This document shows, piece after piece, positions 4,987-16,474 of a DNA stretch of 34,803 nt. Each line of letters starts with the position of its first letter. The stretch's first letter is position 1. This DNA is from Hyphomicrobiales bacterium (GTDB lineage Bacteria > Pseudomonadota > Alphaproteobacteria > Rhizobiales > Beijerinckiaceae), in assembly GCA_947456435.1 (NCBI GenBank), contig CANGSG010000004.1:1-34803 (forward strand), in the 5' to 3' direction. Position numbers and translations under genes: made by a program. Below the pieces are notes generated by a model. That model was not told the origin of the DNA. It saw only the letters and a list, made by a program, of their open reading frames with translations, and made no database searches.

Positions 4987-5484
4987 ATGGCCGGAGCCCG
5001 CCAATCCGCTGCGCTTTCTTCTGAACCGCTTGAGGACGCGCGTGTTCTCGTGGTTGAGGCGCGCTATTATGACGATCTGGCCGATGAACTTTTAAAAGGT
5101 GCTCTCGGCGTCCTTAAAGATGCCGGCGTTATGGCCACGGTAGTCACTGTCCCCGGCTCGCTCGAAATTCCATCAACGGTGGCGATCATGGTGGAAGCGG
5201 CGTCGGCCCATGGCTCGCCCTTCGATGCGGTCGTGACATTGGGCACTGTTATCCGTGGTGAAACCTATCATTTTGAAATCGTAGCGGGCGAAAGCGCGCG
5301 GGCGTTGATGGATCTTTCGGTTGCTTACGGCATGCCGCTCGGCAATGGCATTTTGACAGTTGAGAATGACGAGCAAGCTTGGGCGCGGGCGCGCGTGAGC
5401 GAAGGCAATAAAGGCGGCGGTGCCGCCGAAGCCGCCTTGAGCGTGCTGCGCATCAAGCGGCAAGCGATTGCCGGGGCCGTCTGA
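4987..5484 (+). CDS. ribH: 6,7-dimethyl-8-ribityllumazine synthase
   Basis: 165-residue lumazine synthase that condenses the RibD-derived pyrimidine with dihydroxybutanone phosphate, the substrate step for riboflavin synthase. Family motifs: VPGSLEIP near residue 58, the phosphate-binding/active site [14 protein letters not shown] near 85-98, and GNGILTVEN near 119. GGGGA at 4976-4980 is a good Shine-Dalgarno 6 bp before ATG. It overlaps nusB by 1 bp (TGATG). The two opposing toxin-antitoxin genes lie upstream, so ribH-nusB-thiL probably need their own promoter in 4834-4986; none is obvious there. Confidence 0.96.
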
Positions 5485-5945
5485 TGGCCCGCGGTGAATT
5501 GCGAAGCGCTGCGAGGCTTGCGGCCGTCCAAGCGCTTTATCAAATGGAAATAGCCAGCAAAGGCATCGGCGATGTGATTGCCGAGTTTGAAGCCCATTGG
5601 CTTGGCCGCGAAATCGACGGCATGGAAATGAAGCCTGCTGAAGGCGCGTTTTTTCGGAGCCTTGTTGAAGGTGTCGTTTCGAAACAACGCGACATCGATC
5701 CAAAAATTGATGAAGCGCTGTCTGCAGGCTGGCCGCTGCGCCGGATTGAAGCTGTGCTGCGGGCGGTGCTGCGTGCCGGATGTTTCGAATTGCTCGTGCG
5801 CACGGATGTTCCGGCTAAGGTTGTTATTCGTGAATACGGTGACATCGCTGCCGCTTTCTATGATGGCGATGAAATCGGCATGGTCAGTGCCGTGCTTGAT
5901 GGACTCGCGCATAAGTTGCGTAGCGGTGAGTTGGCACCACCTTGA
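5484..5945 (+). CDS. nusB: Transcription antitermination factor NusB
   Basis: 153-residue all-helical NusB. Binds boxA RNA with ribosomal protein S10 in rRNA antitermination complexes. N-terminal SAARLAAVQALYQME is the typical arginine-rich RNA-binding start. The C-terminal half carries the family pattern AVLRAVLRAGCFELL and VVIREYGDIAAAFYDGDEIG ending in SAVLDGLA. Full length. Translationally coupled to ribH by TGATG; ribH-nusB adjacency is widespread in bacteria. Confidence 0.96.
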   Translation: MARGELRSAARLAAVQALYQMEIASKGIGDVIAEFEAHWLGREIDGMEMKPAEGAFFRSLVEGVVSKQRDIDPKIDEALSAGWPLRRIEAVLRAVLRAGCFELLVRTDVPAKVVIREYGDIAAAFYDGDEIGMVSAVLDGLAHKLRSGELAPP

Positions 5946-6008
5946 ACTCAGTCTATGGTGACGTCTTGCCCTTCCGTCAGGGCTGTGAGTGTGTCAGTGG
6001 AGTTGAGT

Positions 6009-7007
6009 ATGGACGGAAACATCGCGAGATCCGGTGAAGACAAGCTCATTGCGCGCTATTTTGCGCCAATGGCAGGCGCTGCCGGCTTGGCGTTAAAGGA
6101 TGACGCCGCGCTTCTTACACCGCCCGTCGGGACTGATCTCGTTGTCACCGTCGATACGGTGGTCTCAACCGTGCATTTTTTTGCAGATGATCCGCCGGAT
6201 GCGATTGCGGAGAAAGCCTTGGGCGTCAATCTCTCTGACATCGCTGCGAAAGGCGCGACGCCGCTTGGCTTTGTCATGGCTTTATCGCTGCCCGATAATT
6301 GGCGTGAAGATTGGCTTGCGCAATTTGCCGATGGGTTAGCGAAAGCCTCCACGAACGGCGCTTGTCCGCTTATGGGTGGCGATACGACGCGCGCGGCCGG
6401 ACCTCTGTCCATTTCGATTACCGTCTTTGGGTCCGTTCCGACGGGCACGATGGTTCGGCGTACAACTGCAATGCCTGGCGATCTCATTGCGGTGAGTGGA
6501 ACAATTGGCGATGCCGCGCTCGGTCTAAAAATTCGCTCAGCACCAGAGCGTGAATGGGCCGGCGGTCTTTCTGAAAAAGATTACAGCCATCTCCTTGGTC
6601 GTTATCTTCGTCCACAACCGCGTCTCGTTCTAGCGGAAGCGTTGCGGCGGCATGCCTCATCCGCAATGGACGTGTCAGACGGTTTGATTGGGGATTGCAG
6701 CAAGTTGCTTCAGGCGTCAGGCGTCTCGGGTCGTTTGCAAATCGAAAATGTACCGTTGTCGCCGGCGGCCCATGTCGCGATTGGTTTTAACCCGGGTCTC
6801 CTCGGCGATGCCGTGACCGGTGGTGATGATTATGAAATCCTCTTCACATTGCCTCCGGATCGGCTTGAAGACATGATTAAGGACGCGCGGGCGGTCAGTT
6901 GCCCCATCACAGTGATTGGAGAGGTGGGGAAGGGCGATGAGCCCTTGACCGTGACCCTTCGCGGTGAAAGGTTCCTGACCCGCGCAGGCTCCTTCAGTCA
7001 CTTCTGA
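6009..7007 (+). CDS. thiL: Thiamine-monophosphate kinase
   Basis: 332-residue ATP-dependent kinase converting thiamine phosphate to thiamine diphosphate. The sequence shows the ThiL/PurM-like N-terminus GEDKLIARYFAP, the metal-binding KDDAALL near residue 30, CPLMGGDTTRA near 121, and the C-terminal-domain motif SAMDVSDGLIGD near 218 with TGGDDYEILFTLP near 272. An upstream in-frame ATG at 5955 adds 18 residues without family similarity. The ATG at 6009 has GGAG at 5999-6002 and gives the normal family start, so I use it. It sits 63 bp after nusB, probably in the same transcript. Confidence 0.94.
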   Translation: MDGNIARSGEDKLIARYFAPMAGAAGLALKDDAALLTPPVGTDLVVTVDTVVSTVHFFADDPPDAIAEKALGVNLSDIAAKGATPLGFVMALSLPDNWREDWLAQFADGLAKASTNGACPLMGGDTTRAAGPLSISITVFGSVPTGTMVRRTTAMPGDLIAVSGTIGDAALGLKIRSAPEREWAGGLSEKDYSHLLGRYLRPQPRLVLAEALRRHASSAMDVSDGLIGDCSKLLQASGVSGRLQIENVPLSPAAHVAIGFNPGLLGDAVTGGDDYEILFTLPPDRLEDMIKDARAVSCPITVIGEVGKGDEPLTVTLRGERFLTRAGSFSHF

Positions 7008-7030
7008 GCGACGCCGTTTCGCTTGATCAA

Positions 7031-8269
7031 TTGAAAGTGCCTGACGTGTCTTCTGTTTCGTCTTCCCCCCTTTCGAGTCCGTCCTCATTTGATGATCGAC
7101 TCGCGCGCCGCAACGCCGTGCTTCTTGCCACGTCAACGGCTCTCGCTGGTGCGAATGCAACGGTCATTTTCGCAACGGCTGCAATTGTCGGTTCAGTGCT
7201 TGCGCCGGATAAGGGGCTCGCAACCCTCCCCATTTCGATTTTCGTGGTGGGGATGGCGAGCGGTACTCTGCCTGTCGGCTGGATCGCAAAACGCTATGGT
7301 CGTCGTACGGCGTTTCTAACCGGAGCCATTGCGGGAATCATCACTGGCATACTCGCCTGTCTTGCTGTGGTGCAGGGGCTTTTCTCTGTTCTCTGTCTAG
7401 CGACGTTTTTCGGCGGATTTTATCAAGCCGCAGCGCAGTCTTATCGTTTCGCGGCCGCTGATTCAGCGAGTGCTGCTTTTCGTCCGAAAGCGATTTCATG
7501 GGTGCTTGCTGGCGGTATCTTTGCCGGCGTGATCGGACCACAACTTGTTACGCATACAATGGATTTGTGGCAGCCTTATCTTTTTGCCGCGACCTATCTT
7601 TTCCAAGCTGCCATCGCCGCTTTATCGATATTTGTTCTTATTCAAGTGAAAGCGCCGCCGCCTTTGGCCGCTGATGAACTTGAAACAAGACCATTAGGTG
7701 AAATTGCGCGCCAGCCAAAATTTATCGCGGCTGTCATCTGCGGCATTGTGAGCTACGGGCTCATGAATTTCATCATGACGTCGGCGCCGCTTGCTATGAA
7801 ATTGTGCGGCCATGCCGTCACTGATTCAAATCTCGCCGTCGAGTTTCACGTGATCGCGATGTATGCGCCGAGCTTTTTCACCGGCGCTTTGATTGCGCGT
7901 TTCGGTGCCGTCCGGATCATTCTTGTCGGCATGGCCTTGATTGTTGCCGCCGCGATCGCCGGCCATTTGGGGACCACGGTCCCGCATTTCTGGGCTGATA
8001 TGATCCTTGTGGGCCTCGGCTGGAATTTTGGCTTTATCGGGGCGTCCGCTCTCGTGACCGAGACCCATCGGCCGTCCGAGCGGACCAAAGTTCAGTCTTT
8101 CAACGATTTTCTGGTCTTTGGCACTATGGTTGTTGGCTCCTTCTCGTCTGGTCGGATTTTGGTCGATTTCGGGTGGGATATGGTCAATATGATCGTGTTT
8201 CCGCTCGTTTTCATCGGAATCGTCGCTCTCTTTTCCGTAAAAAGGGTCGAATCGCGACGCGCGGCGTAA
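7031..8269 (+). CDS. MFS transporter
   Basis: 412-residue polytopic inner-membrane protein with about 12 hydrophobic segments. The MFS loop 2-3 signature appears as GWIAKRYGRRTAFLTGA near residue 79-95. The N-terminal 20 residues are Ser/Pro-rich and probably cytoplasmic. The start assigned is TTG at 7031, since no ATG lies nearby; a GTG at 7037 or 7046 is equally possible. It lies 23 bp downstream of thiL in the same direction, so cotranscription is plausible. The substrate cannot be told from sequence; the thiL proximity is not enough to propose thiamine transport. Confidence 0.85.
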   Translation: MKVPDVSSVSSSPLSSPSSFDDRLARRNAVLLATSTALAGANATVIFATAAIVGSVLAPDKGLATLPISIFVVGMASGTLPVGWIAKRYGRRTAFLTGAIAGIITGILACLAVVQGLFSVLCLATFFGGFYQAAAQSYRFAAADSASAAFRPKAISWVLAGGIFAGVIGPQLVTHTMDLWQPYLFAATYLFQAAIAALSIFVLIQVKAPPPLAADELETRPLGEIARQPKFIAAVICGIVSYGLMNFIMTSAPLAMKLCGHAVTDSNLAVEFHVIAMYAPSFFTGALIARFGAVRIILVGMALIVAAAIAGHLGTTVPHFWADMILVGLGWNFGFIGASALVTETHRPSERTKVQSFNDFLVFGTMVVGSFSSGRILVDFGWDMVNMIVFPLVFIGIVALFSVKRVESRRAA

Positions 8270-8427
8270 GGCTTCGGCGCAAAGTCGCATTTGCCATCCG
8301 AGCGTAATTTTGGCAGAGACGAGGCCGGAATCGGGCGGCTTTGGCCGAACAATGTCAGATTCGGTCAGATTGGGACGTTTCCCCGCGCTCGGGACGAAAC
8401 GACATAAAAAGAGGACGGAACAGCATC

Positions 8428-10560
8428 ATGACAATGGGCTTGATCATTTTGGGTGGCCTTCTCGCCATCGCCTACGGTTTCTGGGCGATTGCGGATGTGA
8501 ATGGCCGCGACGCGGGTAATGCCCGCATGCAAGAAATCGCCGCCGCCATCGCGGAAGGCGCACAGGCTTATCTCAAGCGTCAATATACGACGATCGCAAT
8601 CGTCGGTGTTGTGTTGTTTATTGTAATTGCTGCTCTTCTGAAGCTCCCTGTCGCGATTGGCTTCGCCATCGGTGCCGTGCTCTCAGGGGCTGCAGGCTTC
8701 ATCGGCATGAATGTGTCGGTGCGCGCTAACGTCCGCACAGCACAAGCATCTTCGAAGTCGCTTGCTGATGGTCTCGATGTGGCCTTCAAAGCCGGTGCGG
8801 TAACCGGTATGCTTGTCGCAGGCCTCGCGCTGCTCGGCGTTGCTGTTTATTACTGGTTGCTCACAGGTCCGATGGGCTACACCGCATCGGATCGTATAGT
8901 TGTTGATGCGCTTGTTGCCCTCGGCTTTGGTGCGTCCCTCATTTCGATCTTCGCGCGTCTTGGTGGCGGTATCTTCACCAAGGGTGCAGACGTTGGCGCC
9001 GATCTCGTCGGTAAAGTTGAAGCCGGCATTCCGGAAGATGATCCGCGTAACCCCGCAACGATCGCTGACAATGTCGGCGACAATGTCGGCGACTGCGCTG
9101 GTATGGCTGCTGACTTGTTCGAAACCTATGCTGTGACGGTTGTTGCGACGATGGTTCTCGCATCCATCTTCTTCGCAGGTCAGAGCATTCTCGCTTCCGC
9201 GATGCTTTATCCGCTCATGATTTGTGCGACCTGCATCGTCACCTCGATCATCGGCACCTTCTTTGTGAAGCTCGGTTCCGATAATTCGATCATGGGTGCG
9301 CTTTATAAGGGCCTCATCGCAACGGGCGTATTGTCGGTTGCCGGTCTTTGGTATGCGACCAACCAGATCGGTTGGGGCGTGATTGGTCAGGCTAATGGTG
9401 TCGACATTACCGGCAAGGCGCTGTTCATCTGCGGCTTGATCGGTCTCGTTGTTACAGGCCTCATCGTCTGGATCACAGAATACTATACAGGCACGGGCAA
9501 GCGTCCGGTTGTATCGATTGCGCAAGCTTCGGTTACTGGTCACGGTACGAACGTTATTCAAGGTCTCGCTGTATCGCTTGAATCAACCGCTCTGCCAGCA
9601 CTCGTCATCGTGGGTGGTATCATTTCGACTTATCAGCTTGCTGGTCTATTCGGCACCGCGATTGCAGTGACGACGATGCTCGGTCTTGCCGGTATGATCG
9701 TAGCACTCGATGCCTTCGGCCCTGTCACTGACAATGCCGGTGGTATTGCTGAAATGGCAGGCCTTCCTAAAGAAGTACGCCATGTCACTGATGCACTCGA
9801 TGCCGTTGGTAACACGACGAAAGCTGTGACCAAGGGCTATGCCATTGGTTCGGCTGGTCTTGGCGCCCTCGTGTTGTTCGCAGCCTATACGAATGACATC
9901 GCGGCCTTCACGAAAGCGGGTGTGCCTTACTTCAAGGATATCGGAACGGTCTCGTTTGATCTGTCCAATCCTTACGTCGTTGCAGGCCTCATCTTCGGTG
10001 GTCTCATTCCGTATCTCTTCGGGGGGATCGCGATGACAGCCGTTGGTCGTGCAGCGGGTTCAGTCGTTGAAGAAGTGCGTCGTCAGTTCAAAGAAAAGCC
10101 CGGCATCATGCAGGGCACTGACAAACCTGATTATGCGCGTGCGGTTGATATGCTTACACAAGCAGCCATTCGCGAAATGATCATCCCTTCGCTTCTTCCT
10201 GTTCTTGCACCGCTTGTCGCTTACTTCGGCGTGTTGTTTGTCTCAGGCTCGAAGGCAAACGCCTTCGCAGCACTCGGTGCCTCGCTCTTGGGCGTGATCG
10301 TCAATGGTCTGTTCGTTGCGATCTCGATGACCTCTGGCGGTGGCGCATGGGATAATGCAAAGAAGAGCTTCGAAGACGGCTTCATCGACAAGGATGGTGT
10401 GAAGCACTTGAAGGGTTCGGATGCGCATAAGGCTTCGGTGACAGGTGATACCGTCGGCGATCCCTACAAGGACACCGCAGGTCCTGCGGTCAATCCGGCG
10501 ATCAAGATCACCAATATCGTTGCTTTGCTCTTGATTGCGATCCTCGCCCACATGGCGTGA
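8428..10560 (+). CDS. hppA: K+-independent H+-translocating pyrophosphatase
   Basis: 710-residue integral membrane pyrophosphatase that couples PPi hydrolysis to proton pumping, with about 16 membrane segments. The PPi/Mg site is visible in [36 protein letters not shown] (given here in parts: [11 protein letters not shown] near residue 190 and NVGDNVGDC near 213) and in the C-terminal [18 protein letters not shown]. The residue after GNTT is Lys (K465, GNTTKA); Lys at this place marks the K+-independent class, Ala the K+-dependent class. The frame is open to 8341, but the first 29 residues look non-coding; ATG at 8428 gives the usual short N-terminus, with GAGG at 8411-8414 somewhat distant. 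Ends at a strong terminator. Confidence 0.97.
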
Positions 10561-10589
10561 TCCCCATCAACATCGCATAAAATACAAAA

Positions 10590-10617
10590 CCCCCGGACAA
10601 TGTCCGGGGGTTTTTTT
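10590..10617. terminator. Intrinsic terminator after hppA, bidirectional
   Basis: Nine base pairs (CCCCCGGAC with GTCCGGGGG) around a 3-nt loop are followed by seven Ts at 10611-10617 on the plus strand. Upstream AAAAC gives a shorter U-run on the minus strand. It lies between the convergent hppA and bamE genes and can serve both. Confidence 0.93.
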
Positions 10618-10644
10618 GTTTCGCGTTTTTTTGGAAGCTTTAGA

Positions 10645-11100
10645 TCAGGTGGAACCGACCATCCGCAACATCTGCCGCACGATCGAGAGATCGGTGCCGC
10701 CCGTCGGTGTTGCGTTTTTGTTGAAGTCGAACACTTCGCCATCTTTCATGCCGTAATTGGCAAGGCTTTCGACCTTCAACGATTTTGTGAAGATAACCGC
10801 GAGCACCCGCTGGTCGGTGATTTCAGGTTTCTGGAACATATAGCTCCGGTTCGTGTTCTGGCTGATGTAATACCAGCTCTGATTACCGACCGTTGAAACC
10901 GTTGACGGCGTACCGAGAATGGCGAGCACTTTCTTTGCGTCCATGCCGGGCTTAATTTCCGCTACCGCTTGCTCATCGATGACATAGCCTTGCGTTTGCG
11001 GGCCGGGCGTCGTGCAGGCTGCAAGCGGGCCGGCAATCAGTATAGCGAGCGCCGCTGTCCTGAGGAGCGCGGGGGCGTTTTTACGCGAAAAATCGATCAT
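10645..11100 (-). CDS. bamE: Outer membrane assembly lipoprotein BamE/OmlA (SmpA domain)
   Basis: 151-residue lipoprotein. The signal peptide ends in the lipobox LAAC with the acylated Cys at residue 29. The SmpA/OmlA fold follows: GYVIDEQAVAEIKPGMDAKKVLAILGTPS, then a WYYISQ strand, matching BamE-type proteins that stabilise the BAM outer-membrane assembly complex at the inner leaflet of the outer membrane. A C-terminal tail of about 50 residues is longer than in E. coli BamE, as is common in alphaproteobacteria. Divergent from the bc1 chaperone gene, a well-known pairing in the group. Confidence 0.9.
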   Translation of the reverse strand: MIDFSRKNAPALLRTAALAILIAGPLAACTTPGPQTQGYVIDEQAVAEIKPGMDAKKVLAILGTPSTVSTVGNQSWYYISQNTNRSYMFQKPEITDQRVLAVIFTKSLKVESLANYGMKDGEVFDFNKNATPTGGTDLSIVRQMLRMVGST

Positions 11101-11232
11101 AGGGCAAAAGACTCCGGTGAGGCCTTTAGCAAGGCACGGGATTTTCCTTGCGCGACCCCTTCCTTATGCCTTACCCCGCAGCCAAGGCAAGGGGCGCAGC
11201 CGGTGCGCCTTTCGGGGTTCGGTGGAAGGATC

Positions 11233-11787
11233 ATGGGGATTTTCTCATATTTCAAACAAAGGCGCGCGAACCGGGAAATCCTTGATCGGCTTTATGGCGC
11301 GGTCATGGCGGCGGCTCGGTCCGAGACGCTTTACCGTGACTTTCGCGTCCCCGATACATTCGAGGGTCGATTCGAATCCTTTACTCTTCATGCGTCGTTG
11401 GTAGCCCGGCGGCTCAATATGCTTCCGTCTCCGGCGCCCGATCTCGCGCGCGATTACGTTGACCGGATCTTCTCCGAACTTGATGGCATGTTGCGCGAGA
11501 TGGGTGTCGGCGACATGGGTGTGCCGAAGCGCATCAAACAAATGGCGGCAGCCTTTCTTGGGCGGGCGGGCGCCTATGTCGACGCGTTGCAGTCGCAAGA
11601 TCGCGCTGTGCTTAAGGAAGTTCTTATCCGCAATGTCTATGCGTCAAAACAGCCGACCGATGATTGCGTTGAAAAACTGATCGATTACGTCAACGCGTTT
11701 TCAACCACACTGGATCGATTAACGCTTGATGCGTTCACATCGGAACAAGTGTCGGTGAATTTGATGGCCACACCGATCCAGGAGTGA
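11233..11787 (+). CDS. Ubiquinol-cytochrome c chaperone (CBP3/UQCC1 family)
   Basis: 184-residue protein of the CBP3 family, which in mitochondria assists cytochrome b translation and bc1 complex assembly. N-terminus MGIFSYFKQRR and the conserved segments ARSETLYRDFRVPDTFEGRFE (residues 25-44 region) and YVDRIFSELDGMLREMGVGD near 77 are typical. The frame is open from 10969, but the canonical start is ATG at 11233 with GGAAGGA 2-8 bp upstream. It is 4 bp from the downstream YceD gene, so they form an operon. Confidence 0.9.
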   Translation: MGIFSYFKQRRANREILDRLYGAVMAAARSETLYRDFRVPDTFEGRFESFTLHASLVARRLNMLPSPAPDLARDYVDRIFSELDGMLREMGVGDMGVPKRIKQMAAAFLGRAGAYVDALQSQDRAVLKEVLIRNVYASKQPTDDCVEKLIDYVNAFSTTLDRLTLDAFTSEQVSVNLMATPIQE

Positions 11788-11791
11788 TCTT

Positions 11792-12316
11792 ATGTCATCA
11801 CCGAAAAAATCAACGGATAGTCAATTGCCGCTTTCGCACCCAATTGATGTCGCGACGATTAAGCCCGATGGCTTGACTGTCACTTTCGAAGCCTCCGAAA
11901 GCGAGCGTGAGAAACTAGCAACACTCTTTGATGTTCCGGCTGTTGTTAAGCTTAGGGCGTCCTTCAAACTCATTCGGAAAGGCTCACGCGTAAAAGTACG
12001 GGGTGATGTTTCCGGCGTCGTGACGCGTTCATGCGTTTTGTCGCTTGAAGACTTCGACATGGATTTTCATGAACCCGTGGCGGTGGATTTTGACGAGAAG
12101 GCTGAAACGCCACGCGATGATGACAGCGATCTCGAAGCGCTCGATCCGATTATTGATGGTCAGATCGATCTTGGCGCACTTGCGGCTGAATTCACCGCCT
12201 TGTCACTTGATCCCTATCCGAAAAAGCCCGGCATTGTGTTTGATTATCGTGAAGATGATGATGAAAAGCCACCATCGCCCTTTTCCGCGCTCGCCGGAAT
12301 TAAACCAAAATCCTGA
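11792..12316 (+). CDS. YceD-like DUF177 protein
   Basis: 174-residue DUF177/YceD family protein, associated with accumulation of 23S rRNA in other bacteria. The core pattern is VRGDVSGVVTRSCVLSLEDF near residues 70-90, an acidic stretch DEKAETPRDDDSDLEALDP, and the C-terminal ALSLDPYPKKPG motif. In many bacteria this gene precedes rpmF and plsX; here plsX follows after 152 bp and no rpmF lies between. The 12317-12468 gap shows nothing clear beyond a short inverted repeat (GGATC/GATCC). Confidence 0.88.
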   Translation: MSSPKKSTDSQLPLSHPIDVATIKPDGLTVTFEASESEREKLATLFDVPAVVKLRASFKLIRKGSRVKVRGDVSGVVTRSCVLSLEDFDMDFHEPVAVDFDEKAETPRDDDSDLEALDPIIDGQIDLGALAAEFTALSLDPYPKKPGIVFDYREDDDEKPPSPFSALAGIKPKS

Positions 12317-12468
12317 ATAATGCAGGCGTGCATGAGGCAGAGACATTGGCGAGGGGGTTGGCCCAAGGGCGCTAGACCGCTATTGTCAAAATTCAGTTTG
12401 AACGAGCCGGACGGGATTCGGTGCAAGAGATCCAGGATCGCTCGAGATCCAGAATTGATTGAGGCGCG

Positions 12469-13557
12469 ATGACGGCGGCACGGGTAAGACTTGCGCTTGA
12501 CGCAATGGGAGGCGATCACGGGCCTGAAACCGTCATCCCCGGCGCGGCCTTAGCGCTTGAACGTCATCCGGAGGTCAGTTTTTTACTGTTTGGCGATCCC
12601 GAGCGTATTCGCCCTTTGCTTGAAAAACATCCACGTCTTGCAACCGTAAGTGAAGTTCGCGCGTCCGAAGTTTTTATCGCGATGGACGAGAAGCCCGGCC
12701 AAGCCTTGCGGCGGGGTCGCGGTAAATCATCGATGTGGCAAGCTATCCAAGCCGTTAAAGACGGGGAGGCCGATGCAGCCGTGTCCGCCGGCAACACCGG
12801 AGCGTTGATGGCGATGGCGACATTTTGCTTGCGCACGATGGCGGGTGTTGATCGGCCGGCCATTGCGGCGATCTGGCCGACAATTCGCGGTGAATCGATT
12901 GTGCTCGATGTCGGCGCGACGATTGGTGCTGACTCACGTCATCTCGTGACGATGTCGCTGATGGGCTCCGCGATGGCGAGTATTCTCTTCGATCTTGATA
13001 CACCGACAGTCGGCTTGTTGAATGTCGGGACCGAAGATGTGAAAGGCCTCGATGAAATTCGTGAAGCCGGCCGCGTGATGCGTGATCTTCCCATTCCCTC
13101 ATTTCGTTATGACGGATTTGTCGAAGGCGATGATATCGGCCAAGGCACAGTTGATGTTGTGGTGACGGAAGGTTTCTCCGGCAATATCGCCCTGAAGACG
13201 GCTGAAGGAACCGCGAAGCAAATTGCGACTTATTTGCGTCAAGCGATGAGCTCAAGTCTTATGAGCCGTATTGGATATCTTTTCGCGCGTTCAGCCTTTG
13301 CAGCACTCAAAGATCGGTTAGATCCACGCAAAGTGAATGGCGGCGTGTTCTTGGGTCTTGATGGCGTTGTGATTAAAAGTCATGGCGGCACGGATGGTGT
13401 TGGCTTCGCTGCCGCAATTGATGTTGGTTATGACATGGTCAAATATGAATTGCAGGATCGCATTCGCACTTCACTGCAAGCATCTCTCGCAAGCCTTGAA
13501 GCGGCTGATCATAAACAGACTGAAAGCTCAACCGCGGAACAAGGAGCGTCATCGTGA
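12469..13557 (+). CDS. plsX: Phosphate acyltransferase PlsX
   Basis: 362-residue soluble enzyme that converts acyl-ACP to acyl-phosphate, the substrate of PlsY (also encoded in this window). The family start [19 protein letters not shown] is present at residues 7-25, with [10 protein letters not shown] near 106 and [17 protein letters not shown] near 288. The end overlaps fabH by 4 bp (GTGA). It links fatty acid and phospholipid synthesis; the plsX-fabH order is conserved across bacteria. Confidence 0.97.
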
Positions 13558-14969: not shown

Positions 14970-15647
14970 TTGGATAAAGCTCCAGACGCCTATAGAACCA
15001 TCAGCGAGGTCGCAACCGATCTTGACTTGCCCCAACATGTGCTGCGCTTCTGGGAGTCTCGGTTCACCCAAGTGAAGCCTTTGAAGCGCGGGGGCGGGCG
15101 CCGGTTCTATAAGCCCGATGATGTTGATCTCGTTCGGGGCATCAAACAATTACTGCACGGCACCGGTTACACGATCCGCGGGGTGCAACGCATCCTGAAG
15201 GAGGAAGGTGCCAAATATGTTCAGGCCATCGGTCGAACCGGCAAGATCCCTTCAAAATCATCAGCGCAAGACGCGGCCGCCGAGCAGGTCATTTTTGCAT
15301 CACCTTTGAAGACGAAAGGGGCCGTGGAACCCGCCGGTGACCCGCGGCCTGGGTCAGCCGAAGATCTTGCTGCGCTCATTGCCCCGCGTCCGCGTGCGCC
15401 CGCGCGCACTGCAAAGCGCAACAAGGCTCAACTCGGTCTCTTCGGTGAGGTAATCGAAGAGGATAGCGATACGTCCTCGTCGCAAGCGCTTGCACGAATG
15501 TTGCCGTCGGCATGGCGGGGTGTGTCTGTGTCTAGTCAGGTCGCGCAGAAATTGCAGGCTGTGCTGGTCGAACTTGAAGAATGTGGCCAGCTCATTTCGA
15601 CCGCCCGCATTGTCGCGGGCGACAACCGCGCGCCGCGCGGGGAGTAG
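14970..15647 (+). CDS. MerR family transcriptional regulator
   Basis: 225-residue regulator with an N-terminal MerR winged helix at about residues 8-80: [21 protein letters not shown], then [18 protein letters not shown] and [16 protein letters not shown]. The start is TTG at 14970, preceded by GAGGGAGG at 14954-14961; no ATG would keep the helix-turn-helix. The middle is low-complexity (Pro/Arg/Ala) and the C-terminus contains a helical segment [15 protein letters not shown]. No metal-binding cysteines typical of MerR metal sensors are seen. Target genes are unknown; it always sits after ihfA in relatives. Confidence 0.88.
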
Positions 15648-15678: not shown

Positions 15679-15726
15679 GCTGAAATTTTGCGGGAAATAA
15701 ATGGTCGGAGTGATAGGATTCGAACC
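15679..15726. repeat. 48-bp direct repeat, copy 1 (tRNA-Pro 3'-end duplicate)
   Basis: Identical over 48 bp to 15802-15849, offset 123 bp. The repeat contains the last 25 nt of tRNA-Pro (T loop to CCA) and 23 bp of its 3' flank. This copy has no tRNA body attached, so it is a remnant, as left by site-specific integration and later loss of an element, or by a local duplication. Confidence 0.9.
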
Positions 15727-15737
15727 CAAATTCTATT

Positions 15738-15773
15738 CGATCACGCTCTGGGCAAAGCCCAACCTCGTGATCG
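15738..15773. other. Hairpin in the inserted spacer
   Basis: Perfect 8-bp inverted repeat CGATCACG (15738-15745) and CGTGATCG (15766-15773). Inside lies a second stem GGGC-AAA-GCCC (15750-15760). It occupies most of the 75-bp segment between the two direct repeats and has no visible coding content. Confidence 0.7.
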
Positions 15774-15801
15774 GGAAAAGTCGTAGGTTCCGAGCGCGGA
15801 A

Positions 15802-15849
15802 GCTGAAATTTTGCGGGAAATAAATGGTCGGAGTGATAGGATTCGAACC
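15802..15849. repeat. 48-bp direct repeat, copy 2 (overlaps tRNA-Pro)
   Basis: The copy that overlaps the intact tRNA-Pro gene, covering its T loop, acceptor end, CCA and 23 bp beyond. Identical to 15679-15726. Confidence 0.9.
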
Positions 15850-15902
15850 TACGACCCCTAGTCCCCCAGACTAGTGCGCTAACCGGGCTGCGCTACACTC
15901 CG
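15825..15902 (-). tRNA. tRNA-Pro (GGG)
   Basis: 78-nt tRNA on the minus strand with encoded CCA. Acceptor CGGAGTG/CACTCCG is perfect, the anticodon stem is CTAGT/ACTAG and loop CTGGGGG gives anticodon GGG, reading CCC/CCU proline codons. The T arm GTAGG-TTCGAAT-CCTAT is normal with one wobble pair. Its 3' end is duplicated 123 bp downstream. The stretches 15648-15678 and 15903-15999 show nothing else. Confidence 0.96.
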
Positions 15903-15999
15903 ACTGGGGCCGCTTATAGAGGGGGGCGTCAGCGGTTTCAAGCCATGGCCGGTCCGAGACGACAACCTCATTCGGCTACCCTTCCAGATCGCACGAAAT

Positions 16000-16236
16000 T
16001 TACCCGTTCACGCGCTTTAAAAACTCAGTCTTGAGAACAAGACCTTTGATATTTTCAACGCGGCATTCAATCTCGCCTTCGTTATTCGTCAAGCGAATGC
16101 CTTTGATCTTCGTTCCCTGCTTGATCACCGACGAAGTGCCTTTGACTTTCAAATCTTTAATCACATGAACGGTGTCGCCTTCGTGAAGCTGCGTTCCGTT
16201 GCAATCTTTTACGATGAGCTGGTCATCATCTGACAT
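16000..16236 (-). CDS. PhnA/YjdM-like protein, C-terminal domain only
   Basis: 78-residue protein matching the C-terminal (SH3-like) domain of PhnA/YjdM: VKDCNGTQLHEGDTVHVIKDLKVKG, then KIKGIRL and LKTEFLKR. The zinc-ribbon N-terminal domain of the longer family members is absent, and the 5' end of the gene is intact with its own ATG, so this is a short natural form. Function is unknown; the historical link to phosphonate use is not supported by the context. It follows the DUF2842 gene by 10 bp on the same strand. Confidence 0.85.
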   Translation of the reverse strand: MSDDDQLIVKDCNGTQLHEGDTVHVIKDLKVKGTSSVIKQGTKIKGIRLTNNEGEIECRVENIKGLVLKTEFLKRVNG

Positions 16237-16246
16237 TTTATGATCC

Positions 16247-16474
16247 TTATGTGTCTATTGAAGCATCGTCGCGGTCGGGCCGTTCCATCCAGCGGATCAG
16301 CGGCATCAGCGGCAGGATCCAGGCGAGCCCTGCGACAAAATAGTAAACCCCTTGCCATAATTTCTCCGCATCTTGCAGGCGGCCTTGGGCAATCGACATC
16401 GCCGCGAGACTGTAGAGAATGACAAAGATGAGCATGGCGACTGTGCCGATGAGCTTCCGTGTCCTGCGTCGCAT
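16247..16474 (-). CDS. DUF2842 small membrane protein
   Basis: 75 residues with two hydrophobic helices (about 9-30 and 40-60) separated by a short loop, starting with MRRRTRKLIGT and ending IRWMERPDRDD. This matches the alphaproteobacterial DUF2842 pattern. It is divergent from ctaA, with 126 bp between. Function unknown; the neighbour hints at respiration but nothing proves it. Confidence 0.82.
   Translation of the reverse strand: MRRRTRKLIGTVAMLIFVILYSLAAMSIAQGRLQDAEKLWQGVYYFVAGLAWILPLMPLIRWMERPDRDDASIDT

Follow-up and report, generated by a model that had tools for sequence, protein, structure and literature searches.

A family of structured units 3' of tRNA genes in Beijerinckiaceae with a complement of the host tRNA T-arm

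The 48-nt direct repeat at tRNA-Pro(GGG) in the window, which is the whole stretch of 34,803 nt analysed here, is part of a unit found 3' of tRNA genes in independent assemblies that share one architecture. Read in the tRNA direction, the unit consists of a trailer, a segment of 10–14 nt complementary to the 5' strand of the host tRNA's own T-arm (anti-T), a two-step hairpin, a linker, and a repeat of the host tRNA's 3' half that runs from the T loop to CCA. Homologous hairpin cores with a host-matched anti-T and 3' copy occur at 11 tRNA isoacceptors, and it is nearly certain that these tRNA-trailer units form a family with this anatomy. Our preferred reading, to which we give a probability of about one half, is that the window repeat is one unit of a co-transcribed trailer cassette family that resembles the E. 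coli RtT repeats and has spread from one tRNA gene to others.

The unit at tRNA-Pro and its hairpin

A repeat search of the window returned 15679–15726 and 15802–15849 as a direct pair with 48 of 48 positions identical and a spacing of 123 nt, leaving 75 nt between the two copies. Each copy comprises the last 25 nt of tRNA-Pro and 23 nt of its 3' flank. The original prediction had described the repeat and its spacing in the same terms, and both descriptions hold. A perfect pair of 48-mers at this distance is far beyond chance. Within the 75 nt lie two features absent from the original prediction, the reverse complement of the T-arm 5' strand of the same tRNA and a hairpin, so that the locus reads as follows.

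15825–15902, minus strand: tRNA-Pro(GGG), the host gene (ARAGORN; Rfam tRNA, 63.1 bits)
15802–15849, minus strand: copy 1 of the 48-nt repeat, tRNA 3' end (15825–15849) plus 23 nt of trailer (repeat search)
15791–15824, minus strand: 34-nt trailer from CCA to the anti-T, which starts at offset 34
15780–15790, minus strand: anti-T, 11 nt, exact complement of nt 48–58 of the same tRNA (complement search; family-wide host test)
15739–15772, minus strand: two-step hairpin with a 7-bp outer stem, an internal loop, a 5-bp inner stem and a 3-nt loop (folding and alignments)
15727–15738, minus strand: linker, A+T rich in the window and GCAGAAGA-like in several relatives (sequence comparison)
15702–15726, minus strand: copy 2 of the tRNA 3' half, T loop to CCA (repeat search and relatives)
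15679–15701, minus strand: copy 2 of the first 23 nt of the trailer (repeat search)
15702–15790, minus strand: match to the covariance models R1 and R2, 102.5 and 94.5 bits (model search)

The unit in the window is about 123 nt long, compared with about 90–140 nt in the family. Its anti-T reads GAACCTACGAC, its hairpin GATCACG-AGG-TTGGGC-TTT-GCCCA-GAG-CGTGATC, and it ends in 25 nt of the tRNA 3' end including CCA; in the family, the host-derived copy begins at or inside GGTTCRA. On the 5' side of tRNA-Pro, a small membrane-like ORF was noticed by eye at 16247–16474 on the minus strand (inspected stretch, 15825–16474), and a similar stretch, also by eye, lies 3' of the tRNA in L014, L015 and L017, which suggests that a local inversion or move may have switched its position.

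The genome that contains the window is a fragmented draft (2.03 Mb in 212 contigs, 92% complete), in which a search with a 361-base query found the full arrangement in one place only. The 11 further matches were to a second tRNA-Pro, a similar unit at a tRNA-Gly and short weak stretches. The similar stretch lies near tRNA-Gly(GCC) on another contig (L003), and its discovery widened the question from a single repeat to a family. It is very improbable that chance, an assembly artefact or plain local tandem duplication produced the arrangement. The fragmentation of the genome and the fact that several arrays stop at contig ends (L010, L012) would fit an artefact, but the same architecture recurs across independent assemblies, and the first unit is a single insertion with about 75 nt of non-tRNA sequence, which duplication alone does not give. 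The suggestion of a local duplication in the original prediction is thus right in that tandem units exist, but it leaves aside the conserved hairpin, the host-matched antisense arm and the recurrence of the unit at 11 tRNA isoacceptors.

The hairpin is under structural constraint and carries compensatory changes. When 9 units were aligned with MAFFT without a model, 97.8% of the cells in the proposed hairpins and T-stem could pair, and two-sided changes were present in 22 cells compared with 7.3 in shuffles; 7 pairs had such a change, a count that is not unusual (111 of 500 shuffles). An alignment of 33 units, which leans toward the structure because it was fitted to the covariance model, had 97.9% of cells paired, two-sided changes in 11 of 15 pairs (2 of 500 shuffles) and 121 cells changed on both sides compared with 38.5 in shuffles (0 of 500); further pair types (26) were not above shuffles. 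With Rfam 15 at the gathering score, only tRNA was matched in 10 sources, E. coli L135 aside, and when the window stretch and L003 were scanned against Rfam by E-value, all matches besides tRNA were sub-threshold. Two other features were considered and dropped by eye: an integron attC-like core (GTTRRRY), as many units read GGTCGG, and a T-run terminator after the anti-T, which is inconsistent between units.

Some loci depart from this anatomy. The trailers of tRNA-Gly(CCC) in L052 (G000:C6) and tRNA-Gly(TCC) in L078 (G003:C27) carry another hairpin, AATCCGCTCC...CGCGGATT, which replaces or adjoins the standard unit and is possibly a second hairpin type. At the tRNA-Lys of G960 (L166/L180), a divergent tandem unit of 90 nt has its anti-T within the loop of an AGAGAA/TTCTCT hairpin.

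The anti-T follows the host tRNA

The anti-T varies with the tRNA that it follows. With the universal GAAC excluded, 129 of 150 variable positions match the host across 25 distinct host/anti-T combinations, whereas permutations that swap hosts, and that ignore relatedness, gave 96.6 ± 3.9 with a maximum of 113, and none of 20,000 reached 129. The anti-T was placed by the covariance model in this test, which used 46 of 50 units, omitting the 4 without an upstream tRNA and keeping poor ones. A first version, in which the anti-T was picked knowing the host, 2 of 24 combinations without GAAC were omitted and L166 was misplaced, gave 115 of 132 (0 of 20,000). Rare T-stems are also tracked, as in Ser(TGA) with GAACTCACGG, Cys with GAACCCCCGT and one Pro(GGG) with GAACCGACGA. 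The anti-T is lost or decayed at L012, L013 and L171 (4 of 6 positions each) and at L052 (0 of 6). Between orthologous units, its conservation (0.88–1.0) is above or equal to that of the preceding 11 nt (0.23–0.88) and the following 7 nt (0.31–0.90).

The link between the anti-T and the second 3' end is also seen at the level of loci. Among 107 distinct tRNA loci, partly chosen as family matches and therefore a description rather than a random sample, a complement of at least 10 nt to the own tRNA lies within 60 nt at 26 of the 35 tRNAs with a 3' copy and at 4 of the 72 without one, and these 4 are decayed units with an anti-T or unit remnant.

The way in which the anti-T matches its host bears on the main rival of our reading, a selfish or neutral DNA cassette, which we rate as a serious but somewhat less probable explanation. 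In this rival, a hairpin element enters the T loop of a tRNA gene through a recombinase or template switching and duplicates the 3' half, and template-switch correction of quasi-palindromes both creates the anti-T and hairpin arms and maintains their perfect match, without serving the cell; such correction could indeed be an alternative source of the tracking in both the hairpin arms and the anti-T without any RNA function. The anti-T is exactly complementary to the T-arm 5' strand even at positions where the tRNA's own 3' strand forms a wobble pair or a mismatch (CCTAC in the window versus the native CCTAT), and its mismatches have no clear G-U tolerance (4 of 11 are G-U, by a hand count on the first host test with L166 omitted), both of which favor this rival, as does the presence of host-derived parts at each of the 11 isoacceptors. 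On the other hand, the hairpin keeps a conserved internal loop that has not been corrected into pairs.

Distribution of the units and nearby islands

The unit family is patchy. Model R1 (E ≤ 1e-4) matched 15 of 199 Beijerinckiaceae genomes in 4 of 43 genera, and model R2 (E ≤ 1e-3) matched 14 of 17 genomes of genus g43, including the divergent unit of G960. Across the order, 3 of 397 genomes matched under strict filters with 11 candidates scored per genome, and all 3 belong to Beijerinckiaceae. An architecture pattern matched 12 of 385 genomes of the class, among which only G053, again from Beijerinckiaceae, has a true unit by eye; this is a weak negative for the class, as the pattern misses true units such as that of the window (0 matches in its own genome). 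The other class-level matches were, by eye, chance-like occurrences of TCGAACC before a tRNA or outside tRNAs. The records named by a DNA-pattern search were Hyphomicrobiales, Beijerinckiaceae and Methylobacterium MAGs or drafts plus two more broadly labelled ones. GTDB-wide, 22 of 23 pattern matches (19 loci) have a tRNA on their own strand less than 500 nt upstream, and the remaining one lies at a contig edge, where it starts with a tRNA-Gly-like 3' end.

The hosts are tRNA-Pro (GGG, CGG, TGG), tRNA-Gly (GCC, TCC, CCC), tRNA-Lys (TTT), tRNA-Trp (CCA), tRNA-Cys (GCA) and tRNA-Ser (GCT, TGA). Four other genomes of the genus have a unit at tRNA-Pro(GGG), namely G001, G007 (two in tandem), G010 and G011, and units at tRNA-Gly(GCC) are present in G000 (two units), G004 and G009; two units with no recognisable anti-T follow the tRNA-Gly(CCC) of the window's own genome. 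Tandem arrays occur at L003, L010, L052, L095, L101 and L111. The unit is often absent at the same tRNA within one genus: among 12 genomes of the genus, tRNA-Pro(GGG) has a unit in 5 and none in 5 (G004, G005, G006, G008 and G009, the last with 209 nt downstream only), and the gene was absent from the search results of 2. Some relatives have empty sites with the same tRNA and near-identical flanks, and this presence and absence is in line with a selfish cassette. In nearest-neighbour identities, the hairpin cores group by tRNA type, with the Cys unit nearest the Trp units, so most copies appear to be long resident. The homologous cores with host-matched parts at 11 isoacceptors show that the cassette has become established at new tRNA genes on several occasions.

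In the scans, units were confined to tRNA 3' ends, and viral, plasmid and phage collections yielded none, which weighs against a selfish element. The phage matches listed were to tRNA genes or unannotated stretches and covered only the first ~80 bases of the query. A hairpin-only pattern run on 119 Beijerinckiaceae genomes gave 5 matches, 4 of them at units, compared with 2 for a reversed control pattern; the fifth (G046) has no tRNA in the 1.5 kb fetched and is a chance-like exception. A selfish cassette is further disfavored by the lack of a linked recombinase, the one candidate being a decayed fragment: a short frame at 15509–15718 of L136, joined to the tRNA-Trp unit of G160, resembles a tyrosine recombinase C-terminus by eye and has no Pfam hit. 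A small GIY-YIG-like ORF, also recognized by eye, follows the tRNA-Pro unit of G001 (L138, 6670–6906). Among the loci compared, the recombinase fragment occurs at the G160 Trp unit only and the GIY-YIG-like ORF at the G001 unit only, and GIY-YIG or integrase genes were rejected as movers of the family.

In two relatives, displaced tRNA-Trp ends that carry a unit mark island ends. In G175 (L175, G175:C10:36000-53000, 5261–12651), two Trp-type units 7.3 kb apart flank genes for RtcR, a Ro60/TROVE-like protein, RtcB and RtcA, with Mrr and an N6-methylase (HsdM-like) on the outer side. Each unit follows a displaced tRNA-Trp end, of at least 17 nt in one and about 11 nt in the other; the 17 kb contain no tRNA gene, and a Phage_integrase ORF lies at or near the end of the contig. 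The rtc stretch probably represents an island for defence or repair at tRNA-Trp. In G958, a unit likewise follows a displaced tRNA-Trp 3' end at an island end. Genuine islands thus probably use unit-bearing tRNA-Trp genes and take the unit along to their distal end, and the insertion hotspot proposed in the original prediction finds support at these loci.

This support is for tRNA 3' ends as hotspots in the family and not for the window repeat as the scar of an island. The original prediction had taken that repeat as the footprint of an integrated and possibly lost element, and we consider it unlikely that a classical integrative island left an attachment site behind at tRNA-Pro. A directly repeated tRNA 3' end is the usual att signature, and the repeated 3' half with its T-loop junction is shared with tRNA-targeted integrative elements. 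The displaced tRNA-Trp ends in G175 and G958, and in G175 the integrase ORF and the RNA-repair operon between two units, point the same way. However, the window's own genome has no second distant copy, the 7 flanking ORFs tested between 12.5 and 18.1 kb of the window include no integrase (Pfam), and only 75 nt separate the copies. Relatives have the same arrangement without an island: L011 and L013 each carry a single unit, and L010 carries a tandem pair (L010 and L012 are truncated by contig ends). Island-free relatives and a tandem series, both named in the original prediction as counter-evidence, have therefore been seen. Small tandem units with a host-matched inverted arm and a covarying hairpin also differ from att elements. 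REP and MITE elements are, like the family, short, non-coding, hairpin-bearing and probably non-autonomous, but the family is not dispersed over many unrelated sites and has no fixed terminal repeats of its own.

Probable co-transcription, folding and relation to RtT repeats

The position of terminators indicates how the unit would be expressed. At tRNA-Gly(GCC) in L047 and L048, a terminator lies 19–37 nt past CCA, and in L042 a matching terminator lies 18–34 nt past the second CCA, with the flank ATGTCGGGA after both CCA copies, which places the unit between the tRNA and the terminator. L043 has the same arrangement by eye, with a terminator uncalled by the script, and none was called downstream of the unit in the window. 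Judged from these sequences, the unit at tRNA-Gly(GCC) is probably co-transcribed with the tRNA.

We also compared folds of the tRNA together with its first unit. In all 30 arrays, pairing between the 5' acceptor strand and the downstream 3' copy gives a fold that is more stable than the cloverleaf, by 2.8–14.6 kcal/mol; this fold is also favored in the E. coli tyrT units. When the anti-T was shuffled, the mean preference over 22 units was 7.15 kcal/mol compared with 8.0 kcal/mol for the real sequences (p = 0.42), indicating that the preference stems from the duplicated 3' end and not from the anti-T. A thermodynamic proof of anti-T function was rejected on this ground, and the flat control favors the selfish cassette. 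The helix between T-arm and anti-T has a probability above 0.5 in 9 of 17 folds, and RNA folds of the whole region are no better than shuffles (z of 0.30 and −0.35). In these models, the T-arm may pair with the sequence-conserved anti-T, and thermodynamics alone does not show such pairing to direct the fold.

Returning to the trailer cassette reading, a role of the unit in the trailer RNA has, from sequence, about even odds. Evidence against this reading comes from the folding control, the T-arm helix that is likely in only 9 of 17 folds, the units whose anti-T is lost or decayed, and the patchy presence of the family at a given tRNA within one genus. The unit would be transcribed as the 3' trailer of the pre-tRNA, and this trailer may be processed like that of E. 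coli tyrT/RtT to yield a small RNA with a tRNA-like CCA end. The anti-T might be retained because it pairs with the T-arm while the tRNA is nascent or still a precursor, and would thereby alter the folding or processing of that tRNA. The cassette may move by T-loop-centred recombination or template switching, the best fit to a host-derived copy that begins at GGTTCRA or inside it.

The nearest known kind is the tyrT repeat of E. coli. RtT units are 178 bp long, and their RNA is released as a stable small RNA with a role in the stringent response. RtT (Rfam RF00391; annotated RttR) shares with the family tandem units 3' of a tRNA, each closed by a repeat of the tRNA 3' end including CCA. Both also have an inverted T-arm segment inside the unit, a criterion set in this analysis and not a published one: in L135, exact 10-nt complements of tRNA nt 56–65 and 68–77 are followed by hairpins and the 3' copy. 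In both, folds of the cloverleaf with the downstream 3' end are favored. In contrast, RtT is found at tRNA-Tyr with long units, whereas the family, at 11 isoacceptors, has a different hairpin and a shorter anti-T. With cmscan, the RtT covariance model had no match in the window stretch, L003 and 9 unit loci, compared with three in L135, and there were 0 matches in the window's own genome with a positive E. coli control. RtT is thus no sequence relative of the family, and the plan is common to both. In E. coli, the RtT unit is present in 4,695 of 5,426 complete genomes at a median of 3 places; 731 have no match at the sensitivity used, and one genome has 14 places. The literature searched, including a passage of PMC7657543 on RtT and with subscription journals mostly outside the search, yielded no description of a tRNA-trailer unit family, and the family is apparently undescribed.

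A bolder version is a self-tailoring, tRNA-specific mobile cassette that copies the 3' half of its host and builds a T-arm antisense, with RtT as a convergent second case. We regard it as tentative, and rather doubtful. If true, such a cassette would give a pre-tRNA two alternative 3' halves, and antisense-bypass trailers would be a general class.

tRNA trailers are usually treated as featureless waste, and here a structured cassette tracks its own tRNA across 11 isoacceptors. Steering of tRNA folding by the trailer, or action as a small RNA, becomes testable. In mobile-element annotation, the family helps to tell the att sites of islands from trailer cassettes, and it offers a natural counterpart to compare with the E. 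coli RtT repeats, which have long lacked an explanation.
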